DNA of 64,000 bases, from the NCBI RefSeq assembly GCF_019443325.1, contig NZ_CP080383.1, positions 3,348,001-3,412,000 of the forward strand, written 5' to 3'. Within the stretch, counting starts at the first letter, position 1. Every line of letters starts with the position of its first letter. Position numbers and translations under genes: made by a program. The notes beneath the pieces were generated by a model. It was not told the DNA's origin. It did not search any database and saw only the letters and a program-made list of their open reading frames with translations. This stretch comes from Cryobacterium sp. PAMC25264. Its GTDB lineage: Bacteria > Actinomycetota > Actinomycetes > Actinomycetales > Microbacteriaceae. Shown here piece by piece: positions 35,941 through 41,893 of the stretch.

Positions 35941-36948
35941 ATGGTGACCAACGAAGAAGCCGAGACGGCTAATAGATACGGAGACTACGCGAGTGGCCTC
36001 CGCGTCGAACGCACGCTCGCATACCTAGACTCCATTCCGGACCCCCGTCAGCGAATCCGAGAATGTGAAATTGCGTCTGAGCAAGCACGTTCCATCCAAA
36101 GCAAAATCGCCACCATTCGGCGGAAGGCCGTGTATGAATTGACGCTGCGCCCTGGCTCATCTGGTGAGTCCGTGGCCGTGGAACTAGGCGTGAGTCCAAA
36201 AGCAGTCTCGGCTGCAATCAGCGAGGCACGAAAAACAGACCTACATCTTCTTCGCGCGGCGTTGGAACTGTACCAATCCATAGCCTGGACTGACCTCTCG
36301 GGCCAGGAGATCGCCGCTGCTCATTCCACTCGAGATGTACTGTTCGCAGCTCGTACTGTTCTTCGTGCCGGGGCCACTCGACATCTGGACAACGAGTCGA
36401 ATGCGACGTTCGAAATCTTGGAGGATGCCCAACGGCGCGCCACCGCTCTTGCCTCAGCGGGAAAGGTGGAAGTCCCTTCACCGCTATGGGTGCGCCGTCC
36501 CATCGGTCAGACGCCTCCCGATTACAGCAGCGTGCCATCGAAGTATCTGCCGCTAGCGCGAGTACTGAACGCCCTCCCGCAGGTGATCGGTTGGGTGGCT
36601 GACAGCAAGCTCGACGAGAGCTGGATGCTGTCCTGGCAAATTCGACCCGCAGAGCCCTACTCGACAGTATTTGACGCCGGCCCTCATCGGGATGGATGGG
36701 CCACGTCAGAATGGCTGGTTTGGCTTCTGCGTGACTACGAACGCAGTGGTTACGCCATGCACCACTACATGGCCAGCCCTCCCCCGTTCCTGAACGAACC
36801 CGGAGAATCCTTGAGTTTCGTGGTCACTTTTCCCAAACACAGCGACGAGAAAATCGTTGACCCCAACGCCCTGGCCGCCTGGGTGAAAACAACTTGGGAC
36901 AAGACGGGCTACGCAACCATCACATGGCCCGAAGAGGAACACTCATGA
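35941..36948 (+). CDS. HTH-containing hypothetical protein of an accessory cassette
   Basis: 335 residues. The N-terminal third is helical and rich in charged residues, with a candidate helix-turn-helix at about 78-98 (SGESVAVELGVSPKAVSAAI). The C-terminal half contains Trp-rich blocks (VIGWVADSKLDESWMLSWQI, WATSEWLVWLLRDYERSGY) of no recognised family. GC content is visibly below neighbouring genes, suggesting horizontal origin. Its stop overlaps the ATG of the next gene (ATGA), so the two products were made together before a transposon broke the second. A role as a regulator or sensor for the partner nuclease-like protein is inferred from this coupling only. Confidence 0.75.
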   Translation: MVTNEEAETANRYGDYASGLRVERTLAYLDSIPDPRQRIRECEIASEQARSIQSKIATIRRKAVYELTLRPGSSGESVAVELGVSPKAVSAAISEARKTDLHLLRAALELYQSIAWTDLSGQEIAAAHSTRDVLFAARTVLRAGATRHLDNESNATFEILEDAQRRATALASAGKVEVPSPLWVRRPIGQTPPDYSSVPSKYLPLARVLNALPQVIGWVADSKLDESWMLSWQIRPAEPYSTVFDAGPHRDGWATSEWLVWLLRDYERSGYAMHHYMASPPPFLNEPGESLSFVVTFPKHSDEKIVDPNALAAWVKTTWDKTGYATITWPEEEHS

Positions 36949-37046
36949 CGTTTGTCGCCTTCGTCGATGAGTCAGAGTCTCGACAAGATATTGACGCAGG
37001 CACATATATCCTCTGCGCGACAATCATGGATGAAAGGGACACCGCT
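36945..37046 (+). pseudogene. DUF3800-like gene, 5' part (interrupted by IS)
   Basis: The first 34 codons (TFVAFVDESESRQDIDAG ... ILCATIMDERDTA) of a DUF3800-like, RNase H-fold protein with the N-terminal VDES metal-site motif. The frame runs straight into the left end of the IS21-family element at 37047, immediately after target sequence ACCGCT. Joining this fragment to 41423 after removing the element and one target copy gives an open 190-codon frame. Start ATG overlaps the upstream stop. Confidence 0.8.
37041..37046. repeat. Target-site duplication, left copy (ACCGCT)
   Basis: Six bases directly repeated at 41417-41422, flanking the IS21-family element exactly. Confidence 0.85.
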
Positions 37047-37078
37047 TGGCGAGTAGCCCGAGTAGGTACCTCTAGTCC
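37047..37078. repeat. Left terminal inverted repeat of the IS21-family element
   Basis: 32 bp, begins TGGCGAGTAGCC and ends GGTACCTCTAGTCC. It matches the complement of 41385-41416 at 29 of 32 positions. Further GGTAC-containing motifs follow inward, as expected for IS21 ends with multiple IstA sites. Confidence 0.88.
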
Positions 37079-37154
37079 GTCGAAGTGGTATCGGTTTCTG
37101 GCTAGGTGGTACTGGCGGCGAGTTGTGGCCCGCCGCCAGCACGGCCGGGTGCGT

Positions 37155-37922
37155 TTACTCCCAGTGGTCTTTGTCGGCGCGGGCGTGATCGTCACGGAGC
37201 TTGCGCATGTCGACTCGGCCGAGGTTGATCGTTCTGGAATGGTTCGCGAGTCGGTTCACGATGGAGTCTGCTGCAACGCGGTCCGGGAGTGCTTCGACCC
37301 AGTAGCTGGGCCCGGATTGAGACGCGATTACGGTGGGCAGGCGGTGTTCTCGGTTCGCGAGGACGGCGAACAGATCGCTTGCGGCGTCGCTGTCGATGCC
37401 GACGGTGAGGAAGTCATCGATGATGAGCAGATCGACGTCGGAGAGCTCGTTGAGCAGTTTCTGGTGGGCGATGCCGTCGCTGCGGGTGATGATCAGACGC
37501 CGGGCGAGGTCGTCCATCCGCGTGTAGGTCACGGTGTGTTCGGTCAGGCAGGCGCTGATCCCGATCGCGCAGGCGAGGTAGGTTTTCCCGCCGCCGGTGG
37601 GCGAGATGATCAGCAGATTCGTAGGGTCGGTCCGCCAGGCGTGGGCGGCGTAGCGGCGCATTCGGACTCCGGTGATGCCGCGGCCGTCGCGGTAGTCGAG
37701 TTCAGCGATTGACGCGTGTGGGATCGGGAATCTGGCCTGTCGGATCAGTTTCTCGACCCGGCTGTGACGGCGCTGCTCGAGCGCGTCGTCGACCGCAGTC
37801 AGGAACAGTTGTTCCGGGGTGAGGGTGTCGTTGGTTTCGTCTTGGATGAGTTCTTCGAACCGGGTGGCGACGTGGGTCACGCGCAGGGCCCGGAACTTGT
37901 CGTAGTCGATGCCGGTGAACAT
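37155..37922 (-). CDS. istB: IS21-family helper ATPase IstB
   Basis: 255-residue AAA+ ATPase that assembles on target DNA and regulates the IstA transposase. Walker A-like SPTGGGKTYLACAIG at about residue 108, Walker B LLIIDDF at about 169, sensor-like region TVIASQSGPSYW. The ATG at 37922 overlaps the istA stop (ATGA), the usual IS21 arrangement. Full length, so probably functional. Confidence 0.93.
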   Translation of the reverse strand: MFTGIDYDKFRALRVTHVATRFEELIQDETNDTLTPEQLFLTAVDDALEQRRHSRVEKLIRQARFPIPHASIAELDYRDGRGITGVRMRRYAAHAWRTDPTNLLIISPTGGGKTYLACAIGISACLTEHTVTYTRMDDLARRLIITRSDGIAHQKLLNELSDVDLLIIDDFLTVGIDSDAASDLFAVLANREHRLPTVIASQSGPSYWVEALPDRVAADSIVNRLANHSRTINLGRVDMRKLRDDHARADKDHWE

Positions 37923-39517
37923 CACTTGGCCTCCTCGTCGCGGGCGTAGTGGGAGGCGTCACGGACGTAAACGTCCGGGATGGTGTCGTGGAAAGTGACG
38001 GTGCTGACTCGTTTGCGCGTCGAAGCTGCCGGGGTGAGCGGGCGGGGCCGCTTGCTGTCGGTGTCGATCGCGGCCATCGTGCGTTTCAGTGTCGTATAGG
38101 TCGCGTGACCGCGCTGGTTGATCAGCTCCTGGCAGGTGGCCTCCAACCGGCCGCGGTTTCTTTTCCCGAGCCCGTCGAGGATGTTCTGGCAGTCCAAATA
38201 TCCCTGCGCCTCGATGGAGTGCCGGTCGAGGATCTGCTCAATCACGCTCACTGTCGCCGGGCCGAAGGACCGCGCCCGGTCCACGAACCACCGCCTCGAC
38301 CACAACCCGTCAACGTCGCGGTATTGAGCGGGAACGTGCTCGGGCAGGGTGGAGTATTGGCCCTTCCGGCCTCGCAGGCGAGCATGTTCGCAGAGGATCG
38401 TTTGACCGTCGAAGACCGTCACCCGCGACGACGTCAGCCGAACCCGCAGCAGTTGGCCCGCATAGCCAAACGGGACGGAGTACTGCTGGGAGTCGCAGCT
38501 GAGATGGTAGTTGCGGCCGACCTTGAGCTCTTTCCACTCGACTTCCTCGAACCGGTCTGCTGGCAGCGGCGCGAGGTGGGCTGCTTCTTCGGCTTCGAAG
38601 AGTTCCCACCTGGTCGTGTCGTTGGCTCGGCGGATGTCGTGGTTAATCTCCCGCACCCGCAGGATGATCTCAGCGTTGAGCTCGCTGATGCTGGTGAAGA
38701 CGTCCTCGGCGAGGTAGCCGATCACGCGTTTGTTCACAACATTCACTGCTGATTCCACCGCCGCTTTATCTCGGGGCTTGCGCACCCGGGCGGGAACAAC
38801 GGCCGTCCCGTAGTGGTCGGCGAGCTGCTGGTAGCGGGCGTTGACGATCCGTTCTCCATCGCCGGCGGTGCGCCGGTGGGTGGAGGTGGTGGGATTGTCG
38901 GGCACGAGGATCTGGGTCACGCCGCCAAAGAACGAGAACGCACGAACGTGAGCGTCAAGCCACGCCTCGGACTTCATATTCGTCGTGGCATGACAAAACA
39001 GGGCGCCCGAGAACGGCAACACCGCGACGAACAAATACGCCCGCGTGATCTGGCCCGTGATCGCGTCGGCCAAGTCGATCGTGTCGCCGGCCCAGTCGAT
39101 CAGCATCGCCCGGCCAGGCTCGTGCTGCAGGGTCGCGACCAAATCATTCACCCGTAAGTGTTCGCCGAAGAGGTGGCAGTACTGCGCGTACCCATACTTC
39201 TTGGCCCGCCCGCCGGCGCTGACATACTTCCGCCAGCCCTGCTGCAAAGTGAAGTGCCGGTTGGCTTTCATCGACCTCAGCACCGCAGCAAAATCCGGCG
39301 CTTCGTACTCATCAGACACCCGTTTGCGACCGTCCGGGAACAACGTCTGAACGTCGGTATCGGTCATCGACTCGACGGTCCCGGCCGTGATGCCTCTCGC
39401 TGTGATCGTCTTCTTCACCGTCGACACGTCGCGCCGGGAACACCCCACGGTCTGAACGATGTCGTTATAGCTGCGGCCATCGAGCACCAGCTCCATGATC
39501 TTCCGGTAGTTGGCCAT
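37922..39517 (-). CDS. istA: IS21-family transposase IstA
   Basis: 531-residue DDE transposase. N-terminal HTH (MELVLDGRSYNDIVQTVGCS) for end recognition. The catalytic triad is visible as Asp in AMLIDWAGDTI, Asp in ILVPDNPTT and Glu in KAAVESAVNVV. A C-terminal beta-barrel and basic tail follow. ATG at 39517 chosen because the HTH starts directly after it; the longer frame runs back through the nested element's repeat-rich end. Full length. Confidence 0.93.
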   Translation of the reverse strand: MANYRKIMELVLDGRSYNDIVQTVGCSRRDVSTVKKTITARGITAGTVESMTDTDVQTLFPDGRKRVSDEYEAPDFAAVLRSMKANRHFTLQQGWRKYVSAGGRAKKYGYAQYCHLFGEHLRVNDLVATLQHEPGRAMLIDWAGDTIDLADAITGQITRAYLFVAVLPFSGALFCHATTNMKSEAWLDAHVRAFSFFGGVTQILVPDNPTTSTHRRTAGDGERIVNARYQQLADHYGTAVVPARVRKPRDKAAVESAVNVVNKRVIGYLAEDVFTSISELNAEIILRVREINHDIRRANDTTRWELFEAEEAAHLAPLPADRFEEVEWKELKVGRNYHLSCDSQQYSVPFGYAGQLLRVRLTSSRVTVFDGQTILCEHARLRGRKGQYSTLPEHVPAQYRDVDGLWSRRWFVDRARSFGPATVSVIEQILDRHSIEAQGYLDCQNILDGLGKRNRGRLEATCQELINQRGHATYTTLKRTMAAIDTDSKRPRPLTPAASTRKRVSTVTFHDTIPDVYVRDASHYARDEEAK

Positions 39518-39630
39518 ACCCACTCCTTCTAGTTCGAAGCAGTGACACCCACGTGCCACCGCTGCGTCTAGAAAAGCGGAGACTTCACACCAGTACCAAC
39601 AACCCAGAACAAGGGGTACCAAGTACGTGG

Positions 39631-41371
39631 TGTGTAATCGCATCACGTTGTTTACACACGTTCTCACCTCCTTGTTTACAACCGCTCTCACGACGTTGTT
39701 TACAACCGGTGTCGCCACGTTGTTTACAACCAATCGCACGACGTTGATTACAGCCGGCGGAACTGGTTAGCCGACGAAGTCGGCATGGACGTGTAGTCAC
39801 GATCTGGCGGAAAATGCTCCTTCTCGTAGGTTTGATGTTTGTGAAGCCAGGCCGGTTTCGGGTCGCGGATTTTCGCTCCCGCGATTTGCCAGAGCGGGAA
39901 GGGTTCTTGGGCGGCGTCGGTGCGCATGGGCAGTGGAAAGTAGATGCTCTCGACTCCACTGAGCGCGTCGAACATGGCGAATTCGGTCTCGGTGGTCACG
40001 ACCTGGTAGGTCCCAACCAGCGTCGTCGGGACCTTGATTCGGAGGCCGTGGAAGTAGAACTGCGGGTTGGCTCGCGTGATGACGACGTGGTCCGAGGAAT
40101 CGCGCAGCCGGCCGCCATGCGGCACCCGCTGCGCGCCAGGCTCGGCGGGAATCGTGGTCTGCCTCAGATCGACAGCTCCGCCCGACTGATCGGCGAGGGA
40201 TTTGTCCCGGTACGAGTCCGCTCGCGCCTGAAGCACGTCGTGGCTGATCGGGGTGCCATCGGCGGGGCGGTGTTCCGCGGCGCCCCAGGCCTGCCCGGGT
40301 GTCATCGATCCGGGCAGCGCCTGGTGCCGTCGGCGGTAGTTGTAATAGGCGCGGTAATCAATGATCAGGGCGGTGAGCTGCTCCAGGGTATCGGGGGCGT
40401 TGGCATCGAGGAACCGCAAGATCGTTTGGTGGCTGCGTTCGTTCTTCCCCTGGGTCTGGGGGTGGCTGCCGCGCCCGGTGATGCCCAGACAGCCCCGGTC
40501 GGCGAGGAACCGTTCGGTGGCGGAGATGTTGCCGCGTCGGGCCTGGTTGAACGCGGTCCCGTTGTCGCTGAGCAGCTCTTTCGGTACCCCGTGGTCGGTG
40601 AAGGCGGAACGGAGCGTGGTGATGGCGTCGGTGCCGTTCTCCGGAGTGGCGAAGCACATCGTGCCGACGTCGAAGCGGGTGGAGTCATCCAGCAGCTGGT
40701 AGACGGTGACCTTGGTGCCCAGCACATTCGGGTCCCGCGCGTCGGCGAGACGGTACTCGAACGCGTCCAGCTGCCACATCTCCATCGCCGCGGCACGGGA
40801 GAACCGAAGCCAGGCCGCCCGTGGACGTTTCCGCGGGTTCGCGATCGTGACGCCGGATGAAGCGAGGATGCGGGCGATCGTCGCCACCGACGGGATGGGA
40901 GAAACGAATTCGCCGGTATCGATCCCGGTGAACCAGATTGATTTGGGCCCGTTGTCCCAACCTTCCTTCTTCAGCCGGGCGCGGATCCTCAGAACGATCT
41001 CGGTAGTCTTCTGGTCAAAGGTCCGTACCGGGTTCAGTGGCGCTGACGAGCGCGGATTCAGCGCCGTGTTGCCCTCGCGGAGGAATCGTCGCCGGATGTT
41101 GTAAAACGACGGCCGGCTGATGTTCAGTCGTTGGCAGAACTCGGTAACGCTGGGCCCGTCGGCGGCAAGCGGGTCGTATTCAATGATCTGGCGGCGGACG
41201 GAGGGAGAAAGGGATCTAGGCACCCCCAATTATCAAAACCGCGATCAGGGCGTGCTTCCTTGAACGCCGAACCTGTAATCAGGGTCGTGAGACATCCCGT
41301 AAACAAGGTGCTGAGACATGGTGACAACAACGTCGTGAGACAGGTCGTAAACACAGAGCTGAGACAGCACA
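39631..41371 (-). mobile_element. Nested IS481-like insertion element
   Basis: 1741 bp inserted between istA and the right end of the IS21-family element. It is flanked by 15-bp direct repeats GTACCAAGTACGTGG at 39616-39630 and 41372-41386. Termini are TGTG...CACA. Each end has about 100 bp of subterminal repeats built from TGTTTAC and TCTCACGAC blocks, probably transposase binding sites. One transposase gene. The second copy of the 15-bp repeat overlaps the IS21 right inverted repeat by two bases, leaving that end usable. Confidence 0.8.
39748..41229 (-). CDS. IS481-like DDE transposase
   Basis: 493 residues. N-terminal HTH (VTEFCQRLNISRPSFYNIRR), then an rve integrase core with Asp in EMWQLDAFEYRL, Asp in LLSDNGTAF and Glu in GKNERSHQTILRF. 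An extended C-terminal domain of ~170 residues has a beta-rich HVVITRANPQFYFHGLRIKV motif, like the C-terminal beta domain of IS481/Tn552-type enzymes. Full length without frameshift. It is longer than typical IS481 transposases, so subgroup assignment is tentative. Confidence 0.88.
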   Translation of the reverse strand: MGVPRSLSPSVRRQIIEYDPLAADGPSVTEFCQRLNISRPSFYNIRRRFLREGNTALNPRSSAPLNPVRTFDQKTTEIVLRIRARLKKEGWDNGPKSIWFTGIDTGEFVSPIPSVATIARILASSGVTIANPRKRPRAAWLRFSRAAAMEMWQLDAFEYRLADARDPNVLGTKVTVYQLLDDSTRFDVGTMCFATPENGTDAITTLRSAFTDHGVPKELLSDNGTAFNQARRGNISATERFLADRGCLGITGRGSHPQTQGKNERSHQTILRFLDANAPDTLEQLTALIIDYRAYYNYRRRHQALPGSMTPGQAWGAAEHRPADGTPISHDVLQARADSYRDKSLADQSGGAVDLRQTTIPAEPGAQRVPHGGRLRDSSDHVVITRANPQFYFHGLRIKVPTTLVGTYQVVTTETEFAMFDALSGVESIYFPLPMRTDAAQEPFPLWQIAGAKIRDPKPAWLHKHQTYEKEHFPPDRDYTSMPTSSANQFRRL

Positions 41372-41384
41372 GTACCAAGTACGT

Positions 41385-41416
41385 GGACTAGAGGTACCAA
41401 CACCGGCTACTCGCCA
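41385..41416. repeat. Right terminal inverted repeat of the IS21-family element
   Basis: 32 bp, GGACTAGAGGTACC at the inner side and GGCTACTCGCCA at the outer edge, followed at once by target copy ACCGCT (41417-41422). Confidence 0.88.
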
Positions 41417-41893
41417 ACCGCTCTCGCCCGAGAGCAAATGGTTGTTCTCAAACCAGCCTCCCGAAAGAAGCTCCACTGGCATGACAACAACACACCTGCA
41501 GGCCGCACGAAGCTCGTTGGGCACGTGTCAGGCATCGGCGCCGAGCACCTTGTCGTGATCCGATTAGGAAGCACCCATGCACCTGCAGAACGTCGACGGC
41601 GAATGTGCATCGAACGGCTGACATTCGAGCTGCAGCTGCTGGGAGTTACTCGCGTGATCTTCGAATCACGGGGACCCGGAGACAAGTCTGATCTTGCACT
41701 CCTCCAGGGACTTCGCTCTAAACGGATCATCGATCCTTCGCTGCGTTTCTACCACCTGCCCGGTCCAGCCGAGCCCCTCTTGTGGATCTCAGACATTGTC
41801 TGCGGAGCTGTCACACAAGACCGGATCGGAAACCCTGCGATGCTGGACCCCATCCGGGATTCCATTACGTTTCACGAAATCCACCAAGGTTAA
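41417..41893 (+). pseudogene. DUF3800-like gene, 3' part (after IS)
   Basis: Continuation of the gene started at 36945. From the second ACCGCT copy the frame reads TALAREQMVVLKPASRKKLHWH, then FESRGPGDKSDLALLQGLRS and PLLWISDIVCGAV with the C-terminal Asp expected at the metal site of DUF3800/RNase H-fold proteins, and stops at 41893. An ATG at 41438 could start a shortened product but has no ribosome binding site. A hairpin terminator follows. Confidence 0.8.

Follow-up and report, generated by a model that had tools for sequence, protein, structure and literature searches.

Probable targeting of IS21-family transposon ends by an IS481-like insertion sequence in Cryobacterium

A 64-kb stretch of the genome of Cryobacterium sp. 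PAMC25264 (C1:3348001-3412000 of a single contig of 4,064,970 bp, here called the window) contains an IS481-like insertion sequence (IS) within an IS21-family element, which in turn interrupts a DUF3800-like gene. From comparison with its relatives, we consider it likely that the IS481-like element preferentially enters the ends of IS21-family elements and that its transposase recognizes a ladder of GGTA words there. Fixed position, orientation, a 15-bp duplication, intact IS21 tips and several independent events form the direct sequence basis. The initial annotation of the window described the nested elements and missed the site and orientation specificity of the IS481 insertion for IS21 ends.

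Insertions at IS21 tips in the genome and the genus

The 4.06-Mb genome has four full-length copies of the IS481-like element: three are identical and 1741 bp long, and the fourth has lost 1 bp. Beyond these copies, a DNA search in which 40 of the 79 first-look candidates were scored gave eight matches to the element's own end repeats and one 28-bp match elsewhere, and a protein search with all 26 candidates scored gave the same four copies. Every copy adjoins an istB/istA pair, with its transposase-side end (A end) toward the IS21 tip. The distance from tip to junction is 45 bp in the window and 44 bp in the other three, and the IS21 tip and istAB are left intact around the insertions. An exact 15-bp duplication flanks each copy. 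Because no two of the four duplications have the same sequence, the copies stem from separate insertions and not from the spread of a single nested unit; a one-off nested insertion is ruled out on the same ground. The tip pattern TGGCGAGTAG-N8-GGTA has six matches in the genome, which are both ends of three IS21 copies, and none in a reversed control. All four IS481-like copies are at these tips, which leaves two of the six empty. The three IS21 copies have target duplications of 6, 5 and 4 bp, and the two IS21 types in the genome are ~73% identical (1916/2620 columns). None of nine more istB-like matches in the genome (25-31% identity) has an IS481-like copy inside. In the copy with the 1-bp deletion (C1:1367016-1368755, L028) the transposase frame is shortened, and the surrounding IS21 is occupied at both ends.

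Apart from one substitution and one inserted base at the insertion point, the window IS21 and the IS21 at 947 kb have the same sequence. In the window copy the IS481-like element occupies the istA end and the istB end is free; in the 947-kb copy it is the other way round. Each of the two near-identical copies therefore displays the pre-insertion site of the other, with a duplication of 15 bp in both, and a third empty/occupied pair, in genome G357, gave the same picture. Because occupancy is reciprocal, the two IS481 insertions cannot both predate the separation of the two IS21 copies. The order of events, previously taken as fixed by the nesting, has to be put more cautiously: all that the nesting demonstrates is entry of the IS481-like element into an IS21. 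An IS21 broke the DUF3800-like gene. For the window copy, arrival of IS21 first and of the IS481-like element later is the simplest history and is not proven, as the latter could have ridden in within the IS21. At the C1:947225 junction (L195) an extra C lies beside the inner 15-bp repeat, and the window copy's empty site is without this C. The 947-kb IS21 copy has a 5-bp duplication, CTTGC, and seemingly lies within the 3' part of a transposase gene (L027, ~4210), which from its likeness we take to be of the IS3 type.

Among 57 Cryobacterium genomes, 12 copies with a transposase at least 57% identical to that of the window were found, the four described above included. IS21 tips harbour nine of the 12, at a distance of 44 bp in seven, 45 bp in one and 56 bp in one whose tip holds 12 extra bases. 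The four copies of PAMC25264 and the copy in G357 reside in elements having both istA and istB. In Cryobacterium aureum (G319, L038) a 57%-identical element lies between an IS21 tip and a different IS21-like end, the latter abutting its second end, an arrangement that reads as a rearranged remnant.

GGTA spacing and alternative explanations

The positions of GGTA words were compared at 12 insertions with an exact 15-bp repeat, six at IS21 tips and six off IS21. Left out of this count were the insertions in G319, G331 and G351, where the second end is damaged or missing, and those at L039, L189, L044 and L047, which have 13-14-bp repeats. In 28 distinct IS21 tips without an element-like start, taken from the loci retrieved, a GGTA ends at position 22 in all 28 (as the search pattern requires), at 44 in 22 and at ~66 in 16. 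Relative to the junctions of the six IS21 insertions, a GGTA ends at -22 in five, at 0 in five and at +22 in six, the window copy being off by one base. All six off-IS21 insertions lack a tip and have a GGTA ending 22 bp before the junction (four) or after it (two). Because all six have GGTA at -22 or +22, the transposase probably reads the ladder. Given the GGTA frequency of the window, the chance of GGTA in four of six sites at one preset offset is P=1.8e-10. Only two GGTA-N18-GGTA pairs occur in the window, and both are IS21 tips. The simplest reading of the spacing would be that GGTA is read in phase with the helix and that IS21 ends are the best targets, carrying two or three nearly in-phase words. 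That the 15-bp repeats merely represent terminal repeats of IS21 itself is ruled out, since they match exactly, vary from site to site and occur outside IS21 as well.

Several observations weigh against this explanation. The P value above overstates independence, the -22 offset having been spotted in the flanks and then tested on those same sites. Two of the six off-IS21 sites have no GGTA at -22 and have one at +22 instead. The ladder is imperfect, with the third GGTA at 65-67 bp (65 at the empty tip of the window); no perfect GGTA triple at 22-bp steps was found within the window, and the insertion in the window misses 44 by one base. Three of the 12 Cryobacterium copies lie outside IS21 (the second copies in G350 and G357, and one in G337), as do three relatives in Arthrobacter and Paeniglutamicibacter. 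Strict IS21 exclusivity is ruled out by the three genus copies, and IS21 tips are a preference, not an absolute rule. In the flanking sequence retrieved around the tips in G319, G331 and G351 neither istA nor istB was matched, and the G350 stretch has a single tip and a partial istA match. These four sites count as tips or remnants of IS21 and are not proven to be complete elements; in G351 the IS481-like element's own end is degraded. An AlphaFold model of the transposase is of middling quality (predicted local distance difference test, 73.6; predicted template modelling score, 0.45), and its full-length structural matches have a high root mean square deviation, leaving only the catalytic core firm. 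Finally, that the transposase itself recognizes the site, rather than a host protein or bound IstA, is what we infer from the sequences.

The last point concerns an alternative in which IstA or IstB on the IS21 ends attracts the element, and not the DNA word itself. The GGTA words do lie within the terminal repeats, and according to the available text of PMC10122671 the terminal inverted repeats (TIRs) of IS21 are composed of multiple repeats and IstA binds the transposon ends. Bound IstA would not, however, readily explain why all six sites lacking a tip keep the GGTA spacing, and we regard attraction by the IS21 proteins as rather unlikely.

Hitch-hiking, meaning a single chance entry into IS21 and subsequent copying along with it, would be in keeping with the recent IS21 movement that two near-identical copies indicate. 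It is highly improbable in view of four insertions with four different duplications, in istA- and istB-side ends and in both IS21 types; moreover, the near-identical copies are occupied at opposite ends, and other genomes provide more sites with other duplications. Survivors might also pile up at IS21 ends by selection, these ends being dispensable, without any targeting. Such ordinary nesting agrees with the tolerance of IS elements for insertions and with the three of 12 genus copies found elsewhere, but selection is not expected to fix one base position, orientation and spacing, and the other dispensable DNA of the genome holds none of the four copies; we find this explanation barely credible.

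If the element targets IS21 ends through GGTA, the transposase would be held on arrays of 24-bp sites at the element's own ends, would recognize the ladder of ~22-bp steps within the IS21 terminal repeats and would join the element ends to DNA at a distance of two helical turns from a GGTA. In this way IS21 would offer the element a safe place to land and would probably also act as its vehicle. That IS21 may still move while carrying its passenger is suggested by the intact tips and the near identity of two IS21 copies; an IS21 copy bearing the identical insert at two sites was not found. In the window, the loaded IS21 sits in the DUF3800-like gene of a two-gene unit and has broken it. The available text of PMC10122671 places the -10 and -35 boxes of IS21 in opposite TIRs, which creates a stronger promoter in tandem arrays. 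Because of this arrangement, an insert in the istA-side end could, as a guess, weaken that promoter.

Relatives and comparison with known systems

A second group of elements, with transposases 42-46% identical to that of the window, also occurs at IS21 tips. Six units in six Cryobacterium genomes (L197, L199-L203) have an IS21 tip on each side and an IS481-type element between them, at 1739-1763 bp in total, and no IstA/IstB match was found between the tips in any of the six. Of the 12 tips, 10 are 42 bp from the start of the element, and the other two are 40 and 39 bp from it. IS21-like outer duplications of 6 bp (G346) and 5 bp (G340) are present, and the remaining four units are without one. 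The tips in G346 match both ends of an intact 2.6-kb IS21 in G348 at 41/42 and 42/42 bases (hand count). Within an orientation group, identity between the inner parts is 89-96%, while the tips differ. In our reading of these sequences, the parasite may have replaced the IS21 interior, leaving IS21 tips around an IS481 transposase. It is possible, and we propose it tentatively, that hunting for IS21 ends is a property of a whole IS481 branch, with one sub-branch consisting of chimeric transposons moved in trans by resident IS21 proteins. A further member of the second group, L137, departs from the 42-bp rule, its A end being 36 bp from an IS21 tip. Several of the six units appear, as we read them, to carry on the transposase side an extra inverted copy of the opposite end.

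A tip-plus-element signature covering both groups, and probably including some relics, gave 27 matches in 15 of the 57 Cryobacterium genomes and none in the reversed control. In a family-wide sample of 398 genomes the occupancy signature was present in three, of which two are Cryobacterium. The remaining match, in another genus (G007), has no GGTA at 19-22 and is probably due to chance, because the reversed control also matched once (G003). Sampling across the family and the order at strict limits gave relatives in 2/299 and 3/396 genomes, PAMC25264 being counted in both. In the plasmid collection a single relative was present, on Arthrobacter pA58H2, and none of the features annotated near it is an IS21 gene.

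In all, 362 relatives were confirmed and 80 loci kept. A scan for flanking repeats took 33 of the 80 and two other loci, and a repeat by the set criteria was found in six of these 35 (L035, L037, L039, L044, L047 and L051); a second scan of 13 loci added L189, loci without a resolved repeat being left uncounted. IstA/IstB matches were present in five of 82 relative loci (L044, L055, L064, L067 and L088). At L044 (Gulosibacter chungangensis) a 44-46% identical relative lies just upstream of istA with a 14-bp repeat containing one mismatch, ~42 bp from a possible IS21 tip (hand count). The ~52% identical relatives at L039 (3893-3905) and L189 (1402-1415) have 13-14-bp duplications, and each is embedded in a near-perfect palindrome. 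The two palindromes resemble one another in sequence and may represent a further specific target in the IS481-like family.

The choice of a transposon end or functional site is already known for IS1111-, IS1202- and Tn5053-type elements, which are compared here on the basis of the accessible parts of the cited papers; the present element would be a separate case in the IS481 family. IS4321/IS5075, of the IS1111 type, reside at Tn21-like terminal inverted repeats and thus, like the inner element of the window, have their preferred home at another transposon's end (PMC8269217). The same source explains an off-target insertion in ureC by its resemblance to a Tn21-like end and uses the wording 'safe harbor'. 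Elements of this type have a DEDD transposase (PMC11187229), whereas the window transposase has an rve integrase core of the DDE type, and the inner element makes a 15-bp duplication with IS21 as its victim. ISAjo2 of the IS1202 family, which inserts at dif and pdif sites, has TGT...ACA ends in common with the inner element, as well as additional transposase sites close to these ends and a fixed distance and orientation to a protein-binding site, without accessory proteins (PMC10132070). The IS1202 transposases have 441-457 amino acids (aa) and were modelled on TnsB (PMC10132070). ISAjo2 differs in its 5-bp duplications and dif targets, as against 15-bp duplications at IS21 ends. A dif-like neighbour together with a 3-5-bp duplication defines the ISAjo2 subgroup only, other IS1202 members having long duplications or none; no conserved target emerged in that study for the members whose duplications are long (16-28 bp) (PMC10132070). 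The Tn5053/Tn402 'res site hunters' likewise insert in a typical orientation at a specific functional site within other transposons, but have the gene set tniABQ plus tniR and use res, not transposon tips (PMC7765201).

Within the IS481 family, ISAar22 of Glutamicibacter arilaitensis (51% identity) is the only individually IS-named relative among the 120 matches listed, and its name was not found in the literature searched. IS481EU and other long-duplication IS481 members resemble the inner element, part of the family having ~15-bp duplications together with TGT...ACA ends, and no target of the IS21-end type is described in the accessible part of PMC10045372. In Leifsonia xyli, IS1237 lies 58 bp upstream of istA inside an IS21 with a duplicated TAA, for which the accessible part of PMC2516522 makes no targeting claim. 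A search of titles and abstract openings, whose coverage most subscription journals fall outside, found no IS481 targeting of IS21 ends among the papers listed. The GGTA ladder of ~22-bp steps with insertion two helical turns off would constitute a readable rule and a concrete target for a long-duplication element, and the chimeric units hint at a route by which a parasite of this kind might take over the transposon that hosts it.

The nested locus and the interrupted gene

The coordinates of the window features are collected in Table 1. For both elements, the boundaries and flanking repeats of the initial annotation hold: the 15-bp direct repeats are exact, and the IS21 tips begin with TGGCGAGTAG and are inverted, with three mismatches in the first 32 bp of the two ends (hand count). 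These repeats are not due to chance, because the exact 15-bp and 6-bp repeats abut the transposon ends exactly and the other copies in the genome repeat the anatomy with other repeat sequences.

Table 1. Positions of the nested elements and the interrupted gene unit in the window
Feature	Position	Strand	Remarks
335-aa gene, sigma-70 region-4-like helix-turn-helix (below Pfam cut-off)	35941-36948	+	stop overlaps start of broken gene (ATGA)
DUF3800-like gene, 5' piece	36945-37046	+	34 codons
ACCGCT, IS21 target duplication, left copy	37041-37046	none	6 bp
IS21-family element	37047-41416	-	4370 bp with passenger, 2614 bp without
istB-side IS21 tip	37047-37090	+	unoccupied in window; GGTA at 37065-37068 and 37087-37090, next at 37108-37111
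istB, helper ATPase	37155-37925	-	256 aa, open frame
istA, IS21 transposase	37922-39517	-	531 aa, open frame
15-bp target duplication GTACCAAGTACGTGG, inner copy	39616-39630	none	
IS481-like element, TGT...ACA ends	39631-41371	-	1741 bp; 45 bp inside istA-side IS21 tip
IS481-like B end	39631-39750	none	five in-phase 24-bp repeats, presumed transposase binding sites
IS481-like transposase (DDE/rve)	39748-41229	-	491-493 aa, open frame; relatives begin two residues downstream
IS481-like A end, facing IS21 tip	41276-41371	none	four in-phase 24-bp repeats
15-bp target duplication GTACCAAGTACGTGG, tip-side copy	41372-41386	none	exact match to inner copy
Intact 45-bp istA-side IS21 tip outside insert	41372-41416	-	GGTA (minus strand) at 41395-41398 and 41373-41376
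ACCGCT, IS21 target duplication, right copy	41417-41422	none	6 bp
DUF3800-like gene, 3' piece	41423-41893	+	156 aa + stop

The three transposition proteins, described earlier as full length, indeed have open frames, lengths typical of their families and matches to those families. IstB matched Pfam IstB_IS21 (PF01695; E=7.2e-39, 134.1 bits against a cut-off of 24.1) and scored 161.7 bits with the equivalog model NF038214, below the cut-off of 200. IstA scored 198.1 bits with the NCBIfam IS21 model NF033546 (cut-off 160). Assignment of the outer element to the IS21 family follows from these matches together with the overlap of istA and istB, and also from its multiple-repeat ends (GGTA ending at 22, 44 and 65-67 bp) and short duplications. 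The inner transposase matched the NCBIfam IS481 model NF033577 (E=5.9e-60) at 203.2 bits, under the cut-off of 224, with the next-best NCBIfam model at 51 bits, and some of its listed relatives carry the source name IS481 family. The TGT...ACA ends and 15-bp duplication fit the family range of 2-15 bp given in the accessible part of PMC10045372. In-phase 24-bp repeats are present at both ends of the window copy and its close relatives, and the fold of the transposase resembles TnsB, IstA and MuA in structure comparison.

The claim that a transposon within a transposon splits a gene was borne out, as the pieces line up end to end on unbroken homologues. The two DUF3800-like pieces were searched and aligned separately, never as a fused sequence. 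In alignment A1, made with 15 homologues picked from 160 found and 120 listed, all 15 have residues on either side of the junction and no gap across it, so that the uninterrupted homologue proposed as a check exists and the two parts do occur fused. The closest among the matches listed, P0001, has 190 aa and is 98% identical to the C-terminal piece. No Pfam match was reached by the window's own gene pieces; among the 120 listed homologues, Pfam DUF3800 (PF12686) is present in one (P0104), and three (P0094, P0100 and P0116) carry the source name DUF3800. A DNA-level empty site was not found across the 57 Cryobacterium genomes, of which only PAMC25264 has a clear DUF3800-like match, the sole other match being weak (E=1.8e-4, 28% identity). 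Neither gene of the broken two-gene unit was matched by PADLOC. The helix-turn-helix protein encoded upstream has 28 relatives, the best of them 94% identical over 335 aa. Seven of the 28 are apparently in the same genomes as listed DUF3800-like matches, which suggests that the two genes may travel together as a conserved two-gene unit.

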